Origin: an uncultured Bdellovibrionales bacterium
GTDB taxonomy: Bacteria > Bdellovibrionota > Bdellovibrionia > Bdellovibrionales > UBA1609
NCBI GenBank assembly: GCA_903833275.1
Contig: CAILEP010000006.1
Span: 323,652 to 366,382 of the forward strand
DNA length: 42,731 nucleotides
Reading direction: 5' to 3'
Both the position numbers and the translations under genes were made by a program. Below the pieces are notes generated by a model. That model saw nothing but the letters and a program-made list of their open reading frames with translations. It ran no database searches and had not been told where the DNA came from. Positions 3,658-37,553 of the stretch are shown in pieces; within the stretch, counting starts at the first letter, position 1; every line of letters starts with the position of its first letter.

Positions 3658-5484
3658 CTATTTATTGGCCTCGACCGCGCTTCGCATTCTTTTCATAAAT
3701 AACTCAGGTGGCTCAAAGCCCAAGAGTGTTAGATCACGTCGCCACTCGCCGTGCGAGTCGAAAATGGCAATAAAAGGTAGACCGCCAATTTGGTATCGCG
3801 CGCGCAGGGTTTCAAGTTCAGGTGATGATGAGGTGGCGTCAAATTCAAGCCAAAGAAATTTTTTGCCGTAGGCCAAAACGGCGGCGTCGCTGAATGTTTT
3901 TACATCGAGCTCTTTGCACGAAAGACACCAGTCGGCTTTGAAATCAAGAATGACGGGGCGACCTTCGGCCGCAGCTTTTTTTAAGAGTTCTTCTGAATAG
4001 CGAAACCATTCGGGGCTATCAGATCTTACTTCGTGCTCGGGTGCGCTCGGTGATCGTAAGAATTGATTCATTATGTGGTCAGGCACTAGGGCTTTTGCGG
4101 CGTAGAGTAGACCAAAAACAAAAACCATTCGCATCGCGGCCTGGTGGCTTTTTTGCCACTTGGTGTGCGCCACATTGCGGGTGCGAAAAGCGCCAAAGAA
4201 TACTGCAAAAACGAGAAGCCCAATGGCGAGCAGGCCGTCAAAAATGTGCCCGTGGGTGACGGGGTAAATATAATAAAAGGCCATGGCGATCATGATGGTG
4301 CCGAACAAAAATTTCACTTGCTCGAGCCATGGGCCTGAGCGCGGCATTTTGTGCCAAAAATTATGATAGGTGCCGATCACCAAAAAAAGTTGGCCGAGGC
4401 CCAAGGCAAAAGTAAAAAGCAAAGAGAAACCAAGCAGTACGTTTTGAGTTTGCGCCACGTAGGCCAGGACACTTATCAGAACCGGGCCCACGCATGGGCT
4501 GGCGACTACTCCGGCGACCAGGCCCGAGCCGAACGCTCCGATGTAGCCTTTTGGTTTATCTTTGTGATGCCCGTGGGTCAGCCGACGAGTGATAAATTGC
4601 GGCATTTGAATTTCAAAAAGGCCGTACATACTTAAACCCATGAGTACAAAAAGAATGGCAACGAAACCGACGACGAGCGGTGAGCCTAAGAACGCGCCAA
4701 AAAGCGAACCTGTTTTCGCCGCTACAACACCGAGAATCGAGTAGGTTGTGGCGATGCCAAGAACATAAAAAGCACTGATCGTGAACGCTCGCCGCTTAGA
4801 GTGCGAATGGTCGGTCGTGCCAAGAATGGCGAGTGTGATTGGTATCATCGGAAAGATGCATGGGGTGAGACTTGTGACGACTCCGGCAAAAAACACCGCG
4901 ATCAGGGCGTAGAGCCAACCTTTGTTTAGAGCTTGAATAAAAATATCGTCGCCGGTGCCGGCTACTTGCAACTCGGCGGTAGTGGTTATTTTTTTCGGAA
5001 ACAAACAAAAGTCTTTGCCGCAGGCTTGGTAGGTGAGTTCGAATTCGAGAAGGCGAGCGCCTGAATTTGAGTTTTTCGGTACTTCGAGAAGACTCACCAT
5101 CTCGGCGTAGTTTTCGGTCCCTACTTTTTCACGATGGGTCATGGGGTCTTGAAATTTAATCGTCGGCTGAACCTCGAAACCACTGAGATTAAAATTTTCA
5201 GGTGACTTCAAAACGAGGCGGTATTGTTCGACGTAGGCGTGAAAGCCGGGGGCGATTTTAATTTTTAATCGAACCTCGACCGATTCGCCAGCCTTTGGTA
5301 GTGCGGGTTTTAATTCAACAGCGGTAATCTTTACCGGATCAAGCTTCGAGGGGTCAGTGAGGTCGGCCGCGACCAAGGTCTGGCCCACCAGACTCAAAGC
5401 CAAAAACGTTACGGCCCCAAGTCGAGTAAACACCTGACCTAGGTCGAGAGTGCGAGTTGTTTTTTGAATGCCTACTGCTGCCAT
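3658..5484 (-). CDS. dsbD: Thiol:disulfide interchange protein DsbD, three-domain form
   Basis: Carries electrons from cytoplasmic thioredoxin across the inner membrane to periplasmic thiol proteins. All three parts of the family are visible: a signal peptide and N-terminal domain with the Cys155/Cys160 pair, an eight-helix membrane core with proline-flanked Cys209 (SLTPCIFPMIP) and Cys331 (VASPCVGPVL), and a C-terminal thioredoxin domain with the CLSC pair 520/523 after FKADW. The 608 residues are close to the 565 of E. coli DsbD. GAGG just before the ATG supports the start at 5484. It stands alone. A second, shorter carrier of the same superfamily lies in the redox operon ending at 37553, so the two may feed different acceptors. 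Confidence 0.93.
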   Translation of the reverse strand: MAAVGIQKTTRTLDLGQVFTRLGAVTFLALSLVGQTLVAADLTDPSKLDPVKITAVELKPALPKAGESVEVRLKIKIAPGFHAYVEQYRLVLKSPENFNLSGFEVQPTIKFQDPMTHREKVGTENYAEMVSLLEVPKNSNSGARLLEFELTYQACGKDFCLFPKKITTTAELQVAGTGDDIFIQALNKGWLYALIAVFFAGVVTSLTPCIFPMIPITLAILGTTDHSHSKRRAFTISAFYVLGIATTYSILGVVAAKTGSLFGAFLGSPLVVGFVAILFVLMGLSMYGLFEIQMPQFITRRLTHGHHKDKPKGYIGAFGSGLVAGVVASPCVGPVLISVLAYVAQTQNVLLGFSLLFTFALGLGQLFLVIGTYHNFWHKMPRSGPWLEQVKFLFGTIMIAMAFYYIYPVTHGHIFDGLLAIGLLVFAVFFGAFRTRNVAHTKWQKSHQAAMRMVFVFGLLYAAKALVPDHIMNQFLRSPSAPEHEVRSDSPEWFRYSEELLKKAAAEGRPVILDFKADWCLSCKELDVKTFSDAAVLAYGKKFLWLEFDATSSSPELETLRARYQIGGLPFIAIFDSHGEWRRDLTLLGFEPPELFMKRMRSAVEANK

Positions 5485-29695: not shown

Positions 29696-29721
29696 TAGGC
29701 GCCCTGGCGCCTAGAGTTTTT
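29696..29721. terminator. Bidirectional intrinsic terminator after murD
   Basis: TAGGCGCC (29696-29703) and GGCGCCTA (29706-29713) form an eight-bp GC-rich stem. Five T follow on the plus strand (29717-29721) and ATCTTTTT follows on the minus strand. It ends the murD transcript from one side and the proB-proA-peroxidase transcript from the other, and its right arm includes the stop codon of the peroxidase gene. Confidence 0.75.
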
Positions 29722-30262
29722 CTTCGAGTGCTTTCTCGATATCTTTTGCTGTCGCCTCGGGTTCGGTTTGTGGGGCGAAACGCTCGATAACTTTGCCGTT
29801 TCGCCCAACTAAAAATTTTGTGAAGTTCCACTTAATCGCTTCGCTGCCGAGCAGGCCCTTGGCGTTTGATTTTAACCAAGCATAAAGCGGGTCGGCTTTG
29901 TCGCCATTGACATCAATTTTCGACATTACCGGAAAGTCGACGTCGTAAGTGAGCTTACAAAACTTCTGAATTTCTTCGTTTGAGCCAGGCTCTTGGGCTC
30001 CAAACTGATTGCAGGGGAAGCCCAAAATCACAAAACCCTTCTCGTGATATTTTTTATAGAGGTCTTCGAGCCCTTTGTACTGCTTGGTGAAGCCGCACTT
30101 GCTGGCGACGTTGACGACCATAACAACTTTGCCTTTGTAATCTGAAAGAGCGCGTTCGGTGCCATCGTTGGCTTTAACTTTAAATGAGTAAAAATCGCGC
30201 GTGTCGGCGTTTGCCATGGTAGCTCCTAGTAAAAAGGTGACGATCAGAAAAGTTATTTTCAT
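29711..30262 (-). CDS. Secreted glutathione peroxidase-family protein
   Basis: Thiol-dependent peroxidase of the GPx family with a catalytic triad Cys56 (NVASKCGFT), Gln86 (FPCNQFGAQEPG) and Trp145 (IKWNFTKF). It is a cysteine, not selenocysteine, enzyme. A second cysteine in FPCNQF is family-wide, and Cys102 (KFCKLTY) may resolve thioredoxin-type catalysis. Unlike cytoplasmic BtuE-type enzymes it carries a signal peptide (first 19 residues, ending ANA), so it should act in the periplasm. It starts six bases after the proA stop and is probably in the proB-proA operon, ended by the terminator at 29696-29721. Confidence 0.92.
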   Translation of the reverse strand: MKITFLIVTFLLGATMANADTRDFYSFKVKANDGTERALSDYKGKVVMVVNVASKCGFTKQYKGLEDLYKKYHEKGFVILGFPCNQFGAQEPGSNEEIQKFCKLTYDVDFPVMSKIDVNGDKADPLYAWLKSNAKGLLGSEAIKWNFTKFLVGRNGKVIERFAPQTEPEATAKDIEKALEEKL

Positions 30263-32440: not shown

Positions 32441-32998
32441 ATGGGCAGTTCTAAATTTGTTTTATTAGCGTTTTTGATTTCAGCAATTTTGGGTATTCAG
32501 ATACCAGGTTGGGCGGCCCCTCTTGCGGTCAGTAGCGGCAAGGTGCACTTTCTGGCCGTAGGTCGGCCAGCCATGATCAAGATCAACGGCGAGAGTGACC
32601 AGTTGATGGGTTCTGCTGAATCCCAAGATAATAAGGCCCGCGGGCATTTTGATTTTGATTTGTCGACTTTGAAAACGGGCGTCGATTTGCGCGATCGGCA
32701 CATGAAAGAAAAATATCTCGAGACCGATAAATTCAAGACAGCCATTTTGTCTTTTTTAGATGTTGCCATGCCCACAGATGATAAAGAGACCGAGCAAGTT
32801 CTGAAGGCAAAGCTTATTTTCCACGACGTCGAAAAGCCGGTGGACGTAAAATTGAAACTTAAAAAAATGGCGAGCGGCTTCGAGGGCCAGGGGTCATTTT
32901 CGATATTACTGACGGACTTCAATGTTCAAATACCAAGTTACATCGGCATTAAGGTGGCGGATCAGGTTCAAGTGACAGTTGATTTTAAGGCTCATTGA
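32441..32998 (+). CDS. YceI-family periplasmic protein
   Basis: Lipocalin-like YceI protein of 185 residues with a signal peptide (about 1-25, ending GWAAP). Family hallmarks are the GHFDFDLSTLKTGVDLRDRHMKEKYLET block and the repeated beta strands that form an extended barrel around a long isoprenoid chain. YceI proteins bind polyisoprenoids or quinones and often sit near cytochromes. Here a diheme cytochrome c gene follows 86 bases downstream. GGGG before the ATG serves as ribosome site. Confidence 0.88.
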   Translation: MGSSKFVLLAFLISAILGIQIPGWAAPLAVSSGKVHFLAVGRPAMIKINGESDQLMGSAESQDNKARGHFDFDLSTLKTGVDLRDRHMKEKYLETDKFKTAILSFLDVAMPTDDKETEQVLKAKLIFHDVEKPVDVKLKLKKMASGFEGQGSFSILLTDFNVQIPSYIGIKVADQVQVTVDFKAH

Positions 32999-33084
32999 TC
33001 GCTCATTGATTTTAGTCATACCGTAAAAGATACATAATCACCTGGCCCGGTGACCCAGGTCTTACTGTGTGTTAGCGAGGGGGT

Positions 33085-33951
33085 ATGAAAATAAACCTCG
33101 CATTTTACATTGGGTTCTTTTTAATCGCTGGCTCGACGGGTTCATTTGGGGCCGAGGTCGATTCGATTCAGCGTGGCCAATATCTCGCAAAAGTTGCGGG
33201 TTGTGTAACCTGCCATACTGAAAAAGGTGGCGAAGTCTTGTCGGGCGGCCGCGCCTTCATGACCCCCTTCGGGACTTTTTATACTCCTAATATAACGCCA
33301 GACAATAAAACCGGAATTGGCAGTTGGAGTGATAAACAATTTGTCAGAGCCGTGCGGCACGGTCGGCGCCCTGATGGTAAAAATTATTTTCCGGCGTTTC
33401 CGTATACCAGCTTTACCAAAATGACGACGGCTGATGTTCTTGCTATCAGGGCCTATCTTAAATCGGTGACGCCGATTGCGAAAATTAATTTACCGCAAAA
33501 AGTGAAGAAGCCGTTCACTCGTTTCGCGGTGAACTTTTGGAAGTTGCTTTATTTTCGTTCTGGCGCCTTGGCGCCGATTGATGGTCAATCTGCATTGTTT
33601 AATCGCGGCGCTTATTTGGCCGACGCGGTTATGCACTGTGCAGAATGCCATACTCCGCGTGATGGGCTGGGTGGGCCGCTTGTTGATAAATATTTGGCCG
33701 GTATGAAAAAAGGAATAGTCGGTGACAAGGCTGTACCAAACATTACGCGTGATCAGACAACGGGCCTTGGCTCGTGGAGTCGCGATGACTATTTAACTTT
33801 GCTTAAAACCGGCGAAACTCCAGACGGCGATAATATGGGCGGCGAAATGAAAGAAGTCATAAAAGAGACTTCGGCGCTGACCGCAGAAGATCAACTCGCG
33901 CTGGTTGAGTACTTGATGCAGGTGAAGGCCGTTAAAAACAAAGTCGATTAA
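33085..33951 (+). CDS. Periplasmic diheme cytochrome c
   Basis: Signal peptide (about 1-22) then two class I cytochrome domains. Heme attachment sites are Cys40-Cys43-His44 (CVTCH) and Cys185-Cys188-His189 (CAECH). Each domain has the NITPD or NITRD and TGIGSWS or TGLGSWS pattern of cytochrome subunits of membrane dehydrogenases. The second domain has nearby Met251 and Met255 as possible heme ligands. In the first, the usual PxMP motif reads FPAFPY, so the sixth ligand is unclear (Met113 is the nearest). It is an electron carrier, partner unknown, and lies just before the thiol-redox operon. Confidence 0.9.
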   Translation: MKINLAFYIGFFLIAGSTGSFGAEVDSIQRGQYLAKVAGCVTCHTEKGGEVLSGGRAFMTPFGTFYTPNITPDNKTGIGSWSDKQFVRAVRHGRRPDGKNYFPAFPYTSFTKMTTADVLAIRAYLKSVTPIAKINLPQKVKKPFTRFAVNFWKLLYFRSGALAPIDGQSALFNRGAYLADAVMHCAECHTPRDGLGGPLVDKYLAGMKKGIVGDKAVPNITRDQTTGLGSWSRDDYLTLLKTGETPDGDNMGGEMKEVIKETSALTAEDQLALVEYLMQVKAVKNKVD

Positions 33952-34157: not shown

Positions 34158-34661
34158 ATGAAGCATATCCTAATTATAATTGCGACTTTGATGACGGCGC
34201 ATCTAGCGCACGCACTTGAAGTGGGCGAGCAAGCTCCGTGCGTAGAATTGAATCAGATCGCGGCCGATGGCAGCGAAGCAGAGCATTGCATCCGTGACCG
34301 TAAAGTTAAGGGCCAGCCAGTGGTTCAAGAGTATTTCTCAGTCACTTGCTCAGATTGCTTTGATAGCTTTGCGCTTATGAACCCGCTATCTAAAGAGCTT
34401 GATGCAAAAGCAACTTTTCGAATGGTGACCGTTGATCGTGATGAGAAAGAAGTGCGCGCATTTTTGAGCCAGAACAAATCACTTATTTCGCACGAAGTGG
34501 CGCTCGACAGCGAGCGAACGGCAACAAAGGTTTATGGCGTAACGCAAACCCCAACAATTTTTGTTTTAAACGGCAAGAATGTAATTGTTTATAAGCATGT
34601 CGGTATCGTCACTGAAGATTCGGCTGCTAAACTTAAAGAAGCCATTCTCTCGAATCAGTAA
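34158..34661 (+). CDS. Secreted thioredoxin-like protein, first gene of the redox operon
   Basis: A 167-residue periplasmic protein with a signal peptide ending near AHA (residue 19). The thioredoxin fold of TlpA/AhpC type is seen in VVQEYFSVTCSDCFDSF with redox pair Cys64-Ser-Asp-Cys67, then a central strand and the cis-proline segment GVTQTPTIFVLNG. Two extra cysteines (28 and 44) lie before the fold and may form a further disulfide. A strong ribosome site (AAGGGGG) precedes it. 23 bases separate it from the lipoprotein gene. Probable role: passing electrons to or from the CxxC lipoprotein downstream (inference). Confidence 0.85.
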   Translation: MKHILIIIATLMTAHLAHALEVGEQAPCVELNQIAADGSEAEHCIRDRKVKGQPVVQEYFSVTCSDCFDSFALMNPLSKELDAKATFRMVTVDRDEKEVRAFLSQNKSLISHEVALDSERTATKVYGVTQTPTIFVLNGKNVIVYKHVGIVTEDSAAKLKEAILSNQ

Positions 34662-34684
34662 TAATTTTTTCTGGGAGGGCGCAA

Positions 34685-34894
34685 ATGAAAACGAAAGTTT
34701 TAATATTAAGCGCCCTCTTGGTTCAATTGCTAATGGGTTGCGCCCAAATTGAACCCAAGGACCTCAGTTTACTTAACCACCCATCGCTTGATTTAGGTCT
34801 TAGCTTTGCTTCAGACGCGGTGACAACAGTTACGGGACTGAAAAATTTTTCGGCTCCAGCTGGGGGCGGGTCATGCACGGTCTGCGCGCACTAA
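34685..34894 (+). CDS. Tiny lipoprotein with C-terminal CxxC, DUF4266-like
   Basis: Only 69 residues. A lipobox puts the lipidated cysteine at Cys19 (LLMGC), so the mature form is about 50 residues, membrane-anchored. The C-terminus is GGGSCTVCAH with Cys64 and Cys67. Glycine-rich, cysteine-ending short lipoproteins of this shape, beginning with an IEPxxLSLLNHP-like block, resemble DUF4266, whose genes are usually next to DUF3570 outer-membrane proteins; the next gene looks like one. The exposed CxxC at the very end suggests a redox-active or metal-binding tail. The stop lies 22 bases inside the next gene. Confidence 0.75.
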   Translation: MKTKVLILSALLVQLLMGCAQIEPKDLSLLNHPSLDLGLSFASDAVTTVTGLKNFSAPAGGGSCTVCAH

Positions 34895-35901
34895 TATTTT
34901 CGGTCGGTCTATTTTTTCTTTGTGCTGTGGGCTTCGCCCAGGGCGCCGATAGCGTTCAGTTTCTCGTCACATCGCAGGCGCTCAATGGCACGGCTGGCGC
35001 ACAGAATCTTAACCCAACAAACAACACCAGTTCAAATTCTCAGCAATTATTTGGTGATGCCAAGCTTTCAAAGAATCTTTCGGCTGAGATTGGCTTAACG
35101 GCGAGCCAACGTGATTACAGTTCGATCGTGCTTCTTGAAAAAAATGGCCAAAGTCAAAATCTCGGCACGCGGTTTAATAAAACCGAATGGGCAGGGCAAA
35201 TTAAGGCCTCTTGGGCCCAAGCCGCGCATCTAGTCGAAGTCGCCGAAAAAAAAAGCCTGAGTGATTCGCCTTACTCGCAGCGCTCGCATACATTTTCATA
35301 TACCGGCCGTGGCCCGTATGATGTTTTCAAGGCGGGCGCGACGTTGAACGAAACCATTACAGATCAGCCTGTGAGTTTTTTTGTGGCGCGAGATTATTCG
35401 ACTCAACAAAGGCCTGATTTGCTCGATGCCTACAGCCAATCGATTTGGCTAGAATACGCTTTATCAGAAGAAGCCAAAATTCGTGGTACGCTTTTGCACG
35501 GCTCAAGGCACGCCGATCGGCCCGACCATTATGGTGAAGAAATCAAACTTGGTTACGCTCTGAGCCCTCTTTATTCGCTTCGGTTTGCTTTGCAAAACAT
35601 TGACGAGCAACAAACTCCTCTTCTAGATGAGCGCGGTCGTTTTAACAGCAAATCAATCGACGCCGAGCTAACGTGGCTTATTAACTATCGGGCCGCATTG
35701 ATGTTTGGCTACGGGCTTGTTCTTGAAGAAGAAAATAATAAGGCCGACGGTAGCAGCGAAAAGATTGGGCACGATATTTATTCGTTCGGAGCAAGTTATC
35801 GAGTCGCCTCGGTCATGCTGACTTCGAATTTATTATACCAGGCCACAAGTCAGCACACTGAAGAGTTTCAGGCCCAAGGGGGGGTGTTGTGGGAGCTTTA
35901 A
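34873..35901 (+). CDS. Outer-membrane beta-barrel protein, DUF3570-like
   Basis: A 342-residue protein with a signal peptide (about 1-25, ending GFAQG) and alternating hydrophobic strands with aromatic girdles through the whole length, ending in a strand finished by the aromatic-rich VLWEL, as outer-membrane barrels do. The pairing with the DUF4266-like lipoprotein and thioredoxin-like genes is that known for DUF3570. I cannot confirm the family by search. It overlaps the lipoprotein gene by 22 bases and the next gene by 13, so it is tightly coupled. Confidence 0.72.
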   Translation: MHGLRALIFSVGLFFLCAVGFAQGADSVQFLVTSQALNGTAGAQNLNPTNNTSSNSQQLFGDAKLSKNLSAEIGLTASQRDYSSIVLLEKNGQSQNLGTRFNKTEWAGQIKASWAQAAHLVEVAEKKSLSDSPYSQRSHTFSYTGRGPYDVFKAGATLNETITDQPVSFFVARDYSTQQRPDLLDAYSQSIWLEYALSEEAKIRGTLLHGSRHADRPDHYGEEIKLGYALSPLYSLRFALQNIDEQQTPLLDERGRFNSKSIDAELTWLINYRAALMFGYGLVLEEENNKADGSSEKIGHDIYSFGASYRVASVMLTSNLLYQATSQHTEEFQAQGGVLWEL

Positions 35902-36431
35902 GCCGACTTACTCCAATCATAATTCTCGTGTTTTTTTGTTCTATTTTAGGTTGTGGCGTACGCATGGGCGAAGTTTCGGGCGGTGCCGTAATGACTACGG
36001 CTGGGGCTATTGGCAATGGCACTCAGCTTGAGGGGCGATACACCGACCTTGACGGGCGGCCCGTGCAACTTGAAAAGTTTAGAGGTACTACTCAGGTCGT
36101 TATCTTTGTGCAAGACACCTGTTCGGCCTGCTCGGCCGAGGCCAAAGAATTGGCGGCGTACGCCGAAGCCAACGGCAAGCCTAAAAACTTTCAATTACGG
36201 CACCTCTTGGTGGGTTCGGTGCAGCAAGATGCACGCGATTGGGTTGAGTATCACAAAATTTCGTGGGACGCCGGTATCGTAGATGTTGAACTGTTTAAGA
36301 GATACTGCCCGGCGCGCAAGGTGCCATGTCTTTTGGTGTTTAAGCCGGGGTTGGGCCTGACTTTTCATCACACCGGGTCGTTAACGATCGAAAAAATCAC
36401 GGAGGCTGCAGGCGAATGGCATCAAAACTAA
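35889..36431 (+). CDS. Thioredoxin-like lipoprotein with CSAC site
   Basis: A 180-residue protein whose signal sequence ends in a likely lipobox (SILGC, Cys22), so it is probably lipid-anchored. The thioredoxin-like domain has VVIFVQDTCSACSAEAKEL with redox pair Cys77-Ser-Ala-Cys80, and the cis-proline position near RKVPCLLVF carries an additional cysteine after the proline. Cys295-type resolving partners are absent; one more cysteine lies in RYCPARK. Start codon is GTG, 13 bases inside the barrel gene. Together with its neighbours it would act at the periplasmic face of the membrane on thiols. Confidence 0.8.
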   Translation: MGALSRLTPIIILVFFCSILGCGVRMGEVSGGAVMTTAGAIGNGTQLEGRYTDLDGRPVQLEKFRGTTQVVIFVQDTCSACSAEAKELAAYAEANGKPKNFQLRHLLVGSVQQDARDWVEYHKISWDAGIVDVELFKRYCPARKVPCLLVFKPGLGLTFHHTGSLTIEKITEAAGEWHQN

Positions 36432-36883
36432 TTTTCACCGCACTTTTATTTTTTGTTTCGACGGCAAAAGCCAATTTAGACGAGTTTCAGATACAAGATG
36501 TTCAAAAAAATAAGATTGAGTTTAAAACTTCGAAAGTCTTAGTTTATTTTTGGGCCACATGGTGCCCTGACTGCAAGCAGGGTTTGAGGCAGAAGTTGCC
36601 TTCGCTCGGTGGCCCTGACGTGACAATGCTCGGGGTTAACACAGACGCCACCGAAGACAAAGTCATAGATTACTTAAAAACTGAAAAGATAACTTTGCCC
36701 TCGCTAGTTGATCGAGACAAAGCCCTGCGCAAAAAATATTCGGTATTCTCGGTGCCGACGGCTTTGGTTTTCAAAAAAGACAAAGGGCAATACATCCTAT
36801 CAAAAACTTTAGTGGGGGCCGATCTCGATGAACTTAGGGCTGAACTGAAGAATGAGATTCGAAAAGAGCCCTCGCATGACTGA
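36416..36883 (+). CDS. Periplasmic TlpA/ResA-like thioredoxin
   Basis: 155 residues with a short signal peptide (ending AKAN, about 19). Classical reductase motif VYFWATWCPDCKQ with Cys50 and Cys53, and cis-proline segment FSVPTALVF. Such proteins reduce disulfides in apocytochromes or partner proteins and receive electrons from CcdA/DsbD, whose gene follows directly and overlaps by eight bases. It starts 16 bases inside the previous gene, with GGAGG upstream. It is the most likely direct partner of the membrane carrier in this operon (inference). Confidence 0.88.
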   Translation: MASKLIFTALLFFVSTAKANLDEFQIQDVQKNKIEFKTSKVLVYFWATWCPDCKQGLRQKLPSLGGPDVTMLGVNTDATEDKVIDYLKTEKITLPSLVDRDKALRKKYSVFSVPTALVFKKDKGQYILSKTLVGADLDELRAELKNEIRKEPSHD

Positions 36884-37553
36884 ACTGTTTGCATTTAAGT
36901 TGGCCACAGTTTTCTCGGCCGGCTTTTTGACCTCCATAAGCCCCTGCGTTTACCCAACCTTGCCGTTGACCGTCAGCTTTTTAACTTTTCAAGCCAAAAA
37001 TTCGAGCTCAAAAACCCCGACCGTATTATTTTTTCTCGGCCAGACCTTGTCGTATGTTTTTTTAGGTTTTCTAGCGGTTAAAATGAGCGAGGTTTTTGGT
37101 TTTTCTTCTCAATCATTTGCGTTGAATGTCGTTCTGGCCGTTCTATTGGGTATTATGGCGGTATTTTCTATTGTTGGGTTTGTGCCGAAAAGAATGGCCA
37201 CGGGTATGGGGCGACTGCAGAAGAGAATTGAAATGCTATCGACAGTATTTCGGTTTGCGCCTTTTTTCATCGGCTTCGGTGCCGCCTTGGTGGCCTCGCC
37301 TTGCACGAGCCCCGTGTTGGGCAGTGTGCTGCTTTCGGTTTCTCGTGACCCGTGGTCGATAAAAACATTTTTTGAAATGTTGGCCTACGCTGTCGGGGCC
37401 TCGCTGTTGGTTCTTATTTTAGGTTTGGGTCTGATGCGGGCCAAACATTTGCCGCGATCAGGGGCTTGGCTGCACTCGGTGCACAGGCTTACCGGCGTGC
37501 TTATTTTGACGGGCGCTTTTTACTACTCTTATCGCGCCTTCGAGCTTTATTAA
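36876..37553 (+). CDS. CcdA/DsbD-type transmembrane electron carrier
   Basis: Six-helix membrane protein of 225 residues that passes electrons from cytoplasmic thioredoxin to periplasmic thiol proteins. The two reactive cysteines are proline-flanked: Cys24 (SISPCVYPTLP) and Cys143 (VASPCTSPVLG), the same motifs as in the core of the DsbD at 3658. There is no N- or C-terminal periplasmic domain, so separate thioredoxins must take the electrons, which the three upstream genes can supply. An ATG at 36852 is in frame, but 36876 gives the normal start just before the first helix. It ends the operon and converges on the next gene four bases away. Confidence 0.9.
   Translation: MTELFAFKLATVFSAGFLTSISPCVYPTLPLTVSFLTFQAKNSSSKTPTVLFFLGQTLSYVFLGFLAVKMSEVFGFSSQSFALNVVLAVLLGIMAVFSIVGFVPKRMATGMGRLQKRIEMLSTVFRFAPFFIGFGAALVASPCTSPVLGSVLLSVSRDPWSIKTFFEMLAYAVGASLLVLILGLGLMRAKHLPRSGAWLHSVHRLTGVLILTGAFYYSYRAFELY

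Follow-up and report, generated by a model that had tools for sequence, protein, structure and literature searches.

What purpose is served by a compact run of genes encoding three thioredoxin-like proteins, a membrane thiol carrier, a tiny lipoprotein, and an outer-membrane β-barrel? The question is raised by an operon at 34158–37553 of the window, i.e., the 42,731-nucleotide (nt) stretch of DNA from an uncultured Bdellovibrionales bacterium that was analyzed here (assembly GCA_903833275.1, contig CAILEP010000006.1, positions 323,652 to 366,382 of the forward strand). The original prediction, made from the DNA alone, viewed these six genes as one envelope thiol-redox operon in which electrons pass from cytoplasmic thioredoxin through the carrier and the thioredoxins to the lipoprotein and the barrel. 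Gene content, conservation, motifs, the missing flavin-related parts, and distant homology to DUF4266 and, likely, to DUF3570 establish that the set is a real conserved module, namely a previously unlabelled variant, without flavin, of a system that is known but whose function is unexplained. With somewhat more confidence than doubt, we propose that the operon relays electrons from the inner to the outer membrane by thiols alone and that it is a sister, devoid of flavin, of the DUF4266/DUF3570/thioredoxin/DsbD system.

Conservation of the set and loss of flavin chemistry

A single-protein search with the barrel, covering 192 genomes of the phylum, yielded matches in 7 other genomes, and a profile built from its matches identified 16 loci, distributed over 14 of 369 genomes (13 genera and 8 families; 11 of the 235 high-quality genomes). 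The gene order of the window recurs in distant families of the phylum and is complete in four other loci (L057, L058, L085, and L086, of which the latter two are in closely related genomes), and a constant core, consisting of the small lipoprotein, the barrel, and a lipoprotein thioredoxin (lipo-thioredoxin), is found in every readable locus. The view of the locus as one envelope thiol-redox operon is thus borne out by its conservation elsewhere, in several loci with a CcdA feeder of its own. The expectation that all six genes stay together holds for the four other loci, but the invariant core comprises three genes, with CcdA, the TlpA-like protein, and the first thioredoxin (Trx1) being variable.

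In DUF3570 systems, ApbE attaches flavin mononucleotide (FMN) to [S/T]GA[S/T] motifs of the barrel, and the clusters also hold a thioredoxin-like protein, a DUF4266 protein with a CXC end, and sometimes DsbD (PMC8238504). Loss of this flavin chemistry is what distinguishes the present set. The flavinylation motif is present in none of its 16 barrels, as opposed to 14 of the 19 full-length DUF3570 barrels of the same phylum; likewise, ApbE, the flavin transferase named in the original prediction as a frequent companion, adjoins none of the 16 loci, compared to 20 of the 21 DUF3570 clusters in the phylum. Moreover, in 9 of the 14 genomes with the module, including that of the window, no ApbE was found anywhere (these genomes are 84–99% complete). 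Flavin might nevertheless be attached to the barrel, either at a non-canonical position or with the help of a transferase distinct from ApbE, in line with the distant DUF3570 homology of the barrel and with the lack of the strict motif in 5 of the 19 canonical DUF3570 proteins from this phylum, which have ApbE adjoining or near. Given the motif-free barrels and the genomes devoid of ApbE, we consider such hidden flavinylation most improbable.

A DUF3570 protein that lacks the flavinylation motif is encoded at L061:7154-8245 (minus strand), with ApbE about 2 kb off on the opposite strand, and may represent an intermediate state. At another locus, two genes directly upstream of Trx1 (L089:8520-9781, minus strand) encode an ankyrin protein and a 195-aa (amino acid) secreted protein with FMN-attachment-like motifs (DALTGATSP and DGKTGATK, respectively), in which a Pfam search found no FMN-binding domain; this genome has two ApbE genes, and at this locus the thiol set may be linked to flavin carriers.

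The small lipoprotein and the barrel

The 69-aa lipoprotein (34685–34894, + strand; lipobox MGCA) ends in CTVCAH. The hallmark of its family is LNHPAMxL...CxxCA[HKY] at the extreme C-terminus; the first seven members, when aligned, all share lipobox C19, N31, and C64xxC67-A68, and CxxCA[H/K/Y] terminates all 15 readable members, none of which has CGCN, the CXC end of DUF4266. The protein has no match to any Pfam or NCBIfam model, DUF4266 (PF14086) included. Comparison of mature parts only, after removal of the signal peptides, gave an hhalign score of 26.9 between the lipoprotein family and the DUF4266 proteins of the phylum, against a mean of 8.2 and a maximum of 19.1 in 60 column shuffles; hmmsearch gave 7.9e-10 in a small set, and the two share the stretch IDRxxLxxxxMxL. 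As judged from these comparisons, the small lipoprotein is a distant relative of DUF4266, with common ancestry of the mature part. Heme binding by CTVCAH was considered and rejected because the c-type motif is CXXCH, the His here lies one residue too far, and other members have K or Y.

The same C-terminus could be put to use in metal handling, with CxxCA[H/K/Y] binding a soft or transition metal (copper, zinc, or iron) at the mouth of a barrel that imports or exports the metal, and with the thioredoxins keeping the ligands reduced. CxxCxH is a combination of residues that could plausibly ligate a metal, about half of the lipoproteins have H as their last residue, and the iron transporter VIT1 occurs in 25 published DUF3570 clusters (PMC8238504). 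We nevertheless regard this explanation as rather unlikely: no metal transporter, regulator, or chaperone recurs next to the 16 loci, K or Y as the last residue in other members weakens the case for a fixed metal site, and three thioredoxins and a carrier seem excessive for one reduced site.

The 342-aa barrel protein (34873–35901, + strand) has 16 long predicted strands. Neither the window barrel nor 7 of its relatives matched Pfam DUF3570 (PF12094) above the cut-off of that model. However, in an hhalign comparison of the 16 barrels with 19 DUF3570 proteins, the score was 53.5 (P = 2e-6) across about 270 collinear positions, compared to a maximum of 33.1 in 30 block shuffles, 30.7 for the reversed alignment, and 13.9 for an unrelated barrel of the window. 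The comparison weakens with fewer sequences (P of 2e-4 to 4e-4), and for this reason the barrel is considered a likely, rather than certain, distant homolog of DUF3570. The earlier lead to DUF4266 and DUF3570 thus fails as Pfam membership and survives as distant homology detected by profile-profile comparison.

Past the signal peptide, the window barrel contains no Cys, and no Cys is conserved in the mature parts of the 16 barrels; thus, the barrel cannot itself carry thiol electrons. Combined with the missing flavinylation motif, this rules out the part of the original prediction in which electrons are carried on by the barrel. An AlphaFold2 model from four sequences has 16 long strands (predicted local distance difference test [pLDDT] 75.7; predicted template modeling score 0.70), the top VIA-align matches of which are general outer-membrane channels (4y25, Z 19.4; CymA, 19.1; OmpG, 17.6); the Foldseek ranking is also headed by general porins. 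These results support an outer-membrane β-barrel of antiparallel, amphipathic strands with a signal peptide and carry no information on function.

The operon and its thioredoxins

All six open reading frames (ORFs) predicted within 34158–37553 are present and share one direction, and the original coordinates and tight spacing are confirmed: a 23-base gap between the first two ORFs is followed by overlaps of 22, 13, 16, and 32 nt, the last of which, between TlpA and CcdA, shrinks to 8 nt if CcdA starts at its second ATG (36876). Promoter and terminator scans remained near chance level. The lipoprotein/barrel overlap is 22 nt in 13 of 15 loci and 13 nt in the other two, and the barrel/lipo-thioredoxin overlap is 13 nt in 13 of 15. 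Such constancy suggests coupled synthesis of one assembly; given that the start codon of the barrel is embedded in the codons of the lipoprotein CxxC motif (34873–34894 in the window), it is partly forced by the conservation of this motif and hence amounts to support rather than proof.

Trx1 (34158–34661, + strand) is a secreted ResA/TlpA-type thioredoxin with CSDC (C64-C67), extra Cys residues at 28 and 44, and a match to Pfam Redoxin (1.6e-8); CxxC and the cis-Pro are invariant in its family. The TlpA/ResA-like thioredoxin (36416–36883, +) contains WCPDC and matches AhpC-TSA (6.9e-12), and both proteins fall within the Redoxin/AhpC-TSA/Thioredoxin group of Pfam models, whereas the matches of the lipo-thioredoxin to AhpC-TSA/Redoxin are weak. 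The latter protein (35889–36431, +) combines the lipobox LGCG with CSAC (C78-C81) and a second Cys pair (C140 and P146-C147); CxxC and P146-C147 are invariant in its family, and C140 is present in at least 90% of the members. With a Cys directly behind the cis-proline and beside its active site, this protein could plausibly relay electrons internally. Its structure model (pLDDT 63.7) is too weak for use. In E. coli, Asp at lipoprotein position +2 governs sorting, and its absence fits the outer membrane. Neither lipoprotein of the operon has Asp at +2, which would fit outer-membrane sorting if the E. coli rule holds in this phylum.

The last gene (36852–37553, +) encodes a CcdA-type transmembrane thiol carrier of 233 aa, with carrier cysteines in SPCVYP and ASPCTSP, as expected of CcdA. 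DsbD_TM (PF02683, 4.9e-21) is its only domain and spans residues 16–225; therefore, as had been predicted, the carrier has none of the periplasmic domains of DsbD. The claim that a complete DsbD is encoded at 3658–5484 is likewise corroborated by a domain search, which detected DsbD_N, DsbD_TM, and a C-terminal Thioredoxin_7. No DsbD_TM protein besides these two was found in the genome of the window.

By PDB sequence profile, ResA is the solved structure closest to the lipo-thioredoxin, which, along with CcdA, could point to cytochrome c maturation, in which CcdA and ResA-like proteins reduce the CXXCH of apocytochromes. Indeed, a diheme cytochrome c gene (33085–33951) lies 206 bp upstream of the operon, and a multiheme one adjoins L055. 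However, cytochrome genes are next to only 2 of the 16 loci, Cytochrom_C_asm proteins are encoded elsewhere in the genome, and the lipoprotein and the barrel have no role in that pathway, all of which makes this explanation very unlikely.

Among the neighbors of the operon, a YceI-like protein and the secreted diheme cytochrome c are encoded upstream on the same strand (32441–33951). In five genomes of the genus, neither this cytochrome gene nor the module was found. A glutathione-peroxidase family protein with a signal peptide (29711–30262; GSHPx, 6.3e-47) is another envelope thiol enzyme near the operon.

Distribution and gene-order variants

The absence of the module from five other genomes of the window's genus indicates a patchy distribution. 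Scans of a genome collection for a single-protein peptide pattern, and of a viral collection, retrieved nothing, and an alignment-based pattern retrieved from the genome collection three already known loci only; a wider alignment provided no usable peptide pattern. These pattern scans are too insensitive to show that the set is restricted to the phylum. No match was obtained in a comparison with plasmids.

Beyond the complete sets, the first five genes are present in L055, L056, L059, L084, and L089, and in L088 with Trx1 relocated to the end, whereas L053 lacks Trx1 and CcdA, and L087 lacks TlpA and CcdA and has a duplicated lipo-thioredoxin. L054 begins with the barrel at a contig end, followed by lipo-thioredoxin, TlpA, and CcdA. 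The lipo-thioredoxin of L053 and the lipoprotein of L089, both missed by the ORF picker, were identified by reading the frames. L082 and L083 are short sets, consisting of the lipoprotein, barrel, lipo-thioredoxin, and a glutaredoxin-like lipoprotein. Altogether, Trx1 orthologs are present in 11 other loci, TlpA in 13 of the 16, and CcdA in 6 of the 16, that of the window included. Two related genomes each carry a full six-gene copy and a short copy (L082, L083, L085, and L086), and the glutaredoxin-like lipoprotein of the short copies has paired cysteines.

The composition of the core bears on another potential function, envelope disulfide repair, in which the set would act in the manner of Dsb/Scs, reducing or isomerizing the disulfides of secreted or outer-membrane proteins, with the barrel as no more than a partner or client. 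CcdA/TlpA-type proteins commonly work in envelope disulfide systems, and the set combines such proteins with several thioredoxins that differ in their active sites. Nevertheless, no isomerase belongs to the core, which is made up of the very small lipoprotein, the barrel without Cys, and a single thioredoxin; a Pfam search of the operon proteins detected no DsbC/ScsC-type domain; and the distant relatives have been interpreted as electron-transfer clusters (PMC8238504). On balance, we find a repair function unlikely.

A putative thiol relay to the outer membrane

We infer the direction of electron flow, the order of the carriers, the contact between lipoprotein and barrel, the sorting to the outer membrane, and the nature of the acceptor as follows. 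CcdA (in loci without it, the chromosomal DsbD) would draw electrons from cytoplasmic thioredoxin and reduce TlpA, which would pass them to the outer-membrane lipo-thioredoxin, the second Cys pair of which could act as a relay. The next recipient would be the CxxC at the very C-terminus of the small lipoprotein, reduced by the lipo-thioredoxin, perhaps together with Trx1. Held by or threaded through the barrel, which has 16 strands and no Cys and may serve as a scaffold or pore, this lipoprotein could present its dithiol to an acceptor located at the outer membrane or beyond it. The flavinylated relatives are themselves interpreted as electron-transfer clusters (PMC8238504). DsbD_TM proteins are encoded in all 13 other genomes with the module but also in all 35 genomes tested, so that their presence is uninformative by itself. 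A bolder version, which we advance tentatively and with considerable doubt, is that the set forms a heme-free and flavin-free outer-membrane conduit operating by thiol-disulfide exchange alone, whereby the C-terminal dithiol of the lipoprotein, presented at a dedicated barrel or threaded through it, brings cytosolic reducing power to or beyond the cell surface.

Several observations weigh against the relay. TlpA has no neighboring CcdA in seven loci and is itself missing from three; no acceptor or substrate gene consistently accompanies the set across the 16 loci; many general porins and channels are similar in structure to the barrel model, which therefore offers no pointer to electron transfer; and the CxxCA[HKY] end of the lipoprotein could be metal-binding rather than redox-cycling.

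The set has implications for the widespread DUF4266/DUF3570 system, which has so far been interpreted as flavin-based. A natural sister in which neither the flavin transferase nor the site of flavin attachment is retained implies that the essential machine is the lipoprotein-barrel-thioredoxin core and not the flavin, and would suggest thiols as an alternative outer-membrane redox carrier, besides heme and flavin. No paper on such a thiol system was found in the collection of literature searched. With three to six genes, the set is simple and testable.

Relationship to known systems

The closest parallel is provided by the DsbD-type flavinylation clusters, which encompass ApbE, DUF3570 (PF12094), DUF4266 (PF14086), a thioredoxin-like protein, and, in some cases, DsbD (PMC8238504). 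The set shares with these clusters the lipoprotein-barrel-thioredoxin order, the overlapping genes, the link to DsbD/CcdA, and the distant homology of both signature proteins. It differs from them in the absence of ApbE and [S/T]GA[S/T], in the replacement of CGCN by CxxCA[HKY], in shorter barrels (333–362 aa, compared to 363–456 aa in DUF3570), and in the addition of a lipo-thioredoxin, a secreted thioredoxin, and sometimes its own CcdA. MtrCAB-type porin-cytochrome conduits also place a redox carrier at or in an outer-membrane barrel; this is an analogy only, the set having neither a heme protein nor any sequence relation to them, and threading of the lipoprotein is speculation. Finally, in CcdA/ResA, CcdA/StoA, and SoxV/SoxW, a carrier equivalent to the DsbD membrane domain feeds a TlpA-type thioredoxin, with targets that are soluble or in the inner membrane. 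The set includes the same carrier-TlpA pairing, but the proteins conserved alongside it are lipoproteins and an outer-membrane barrel.

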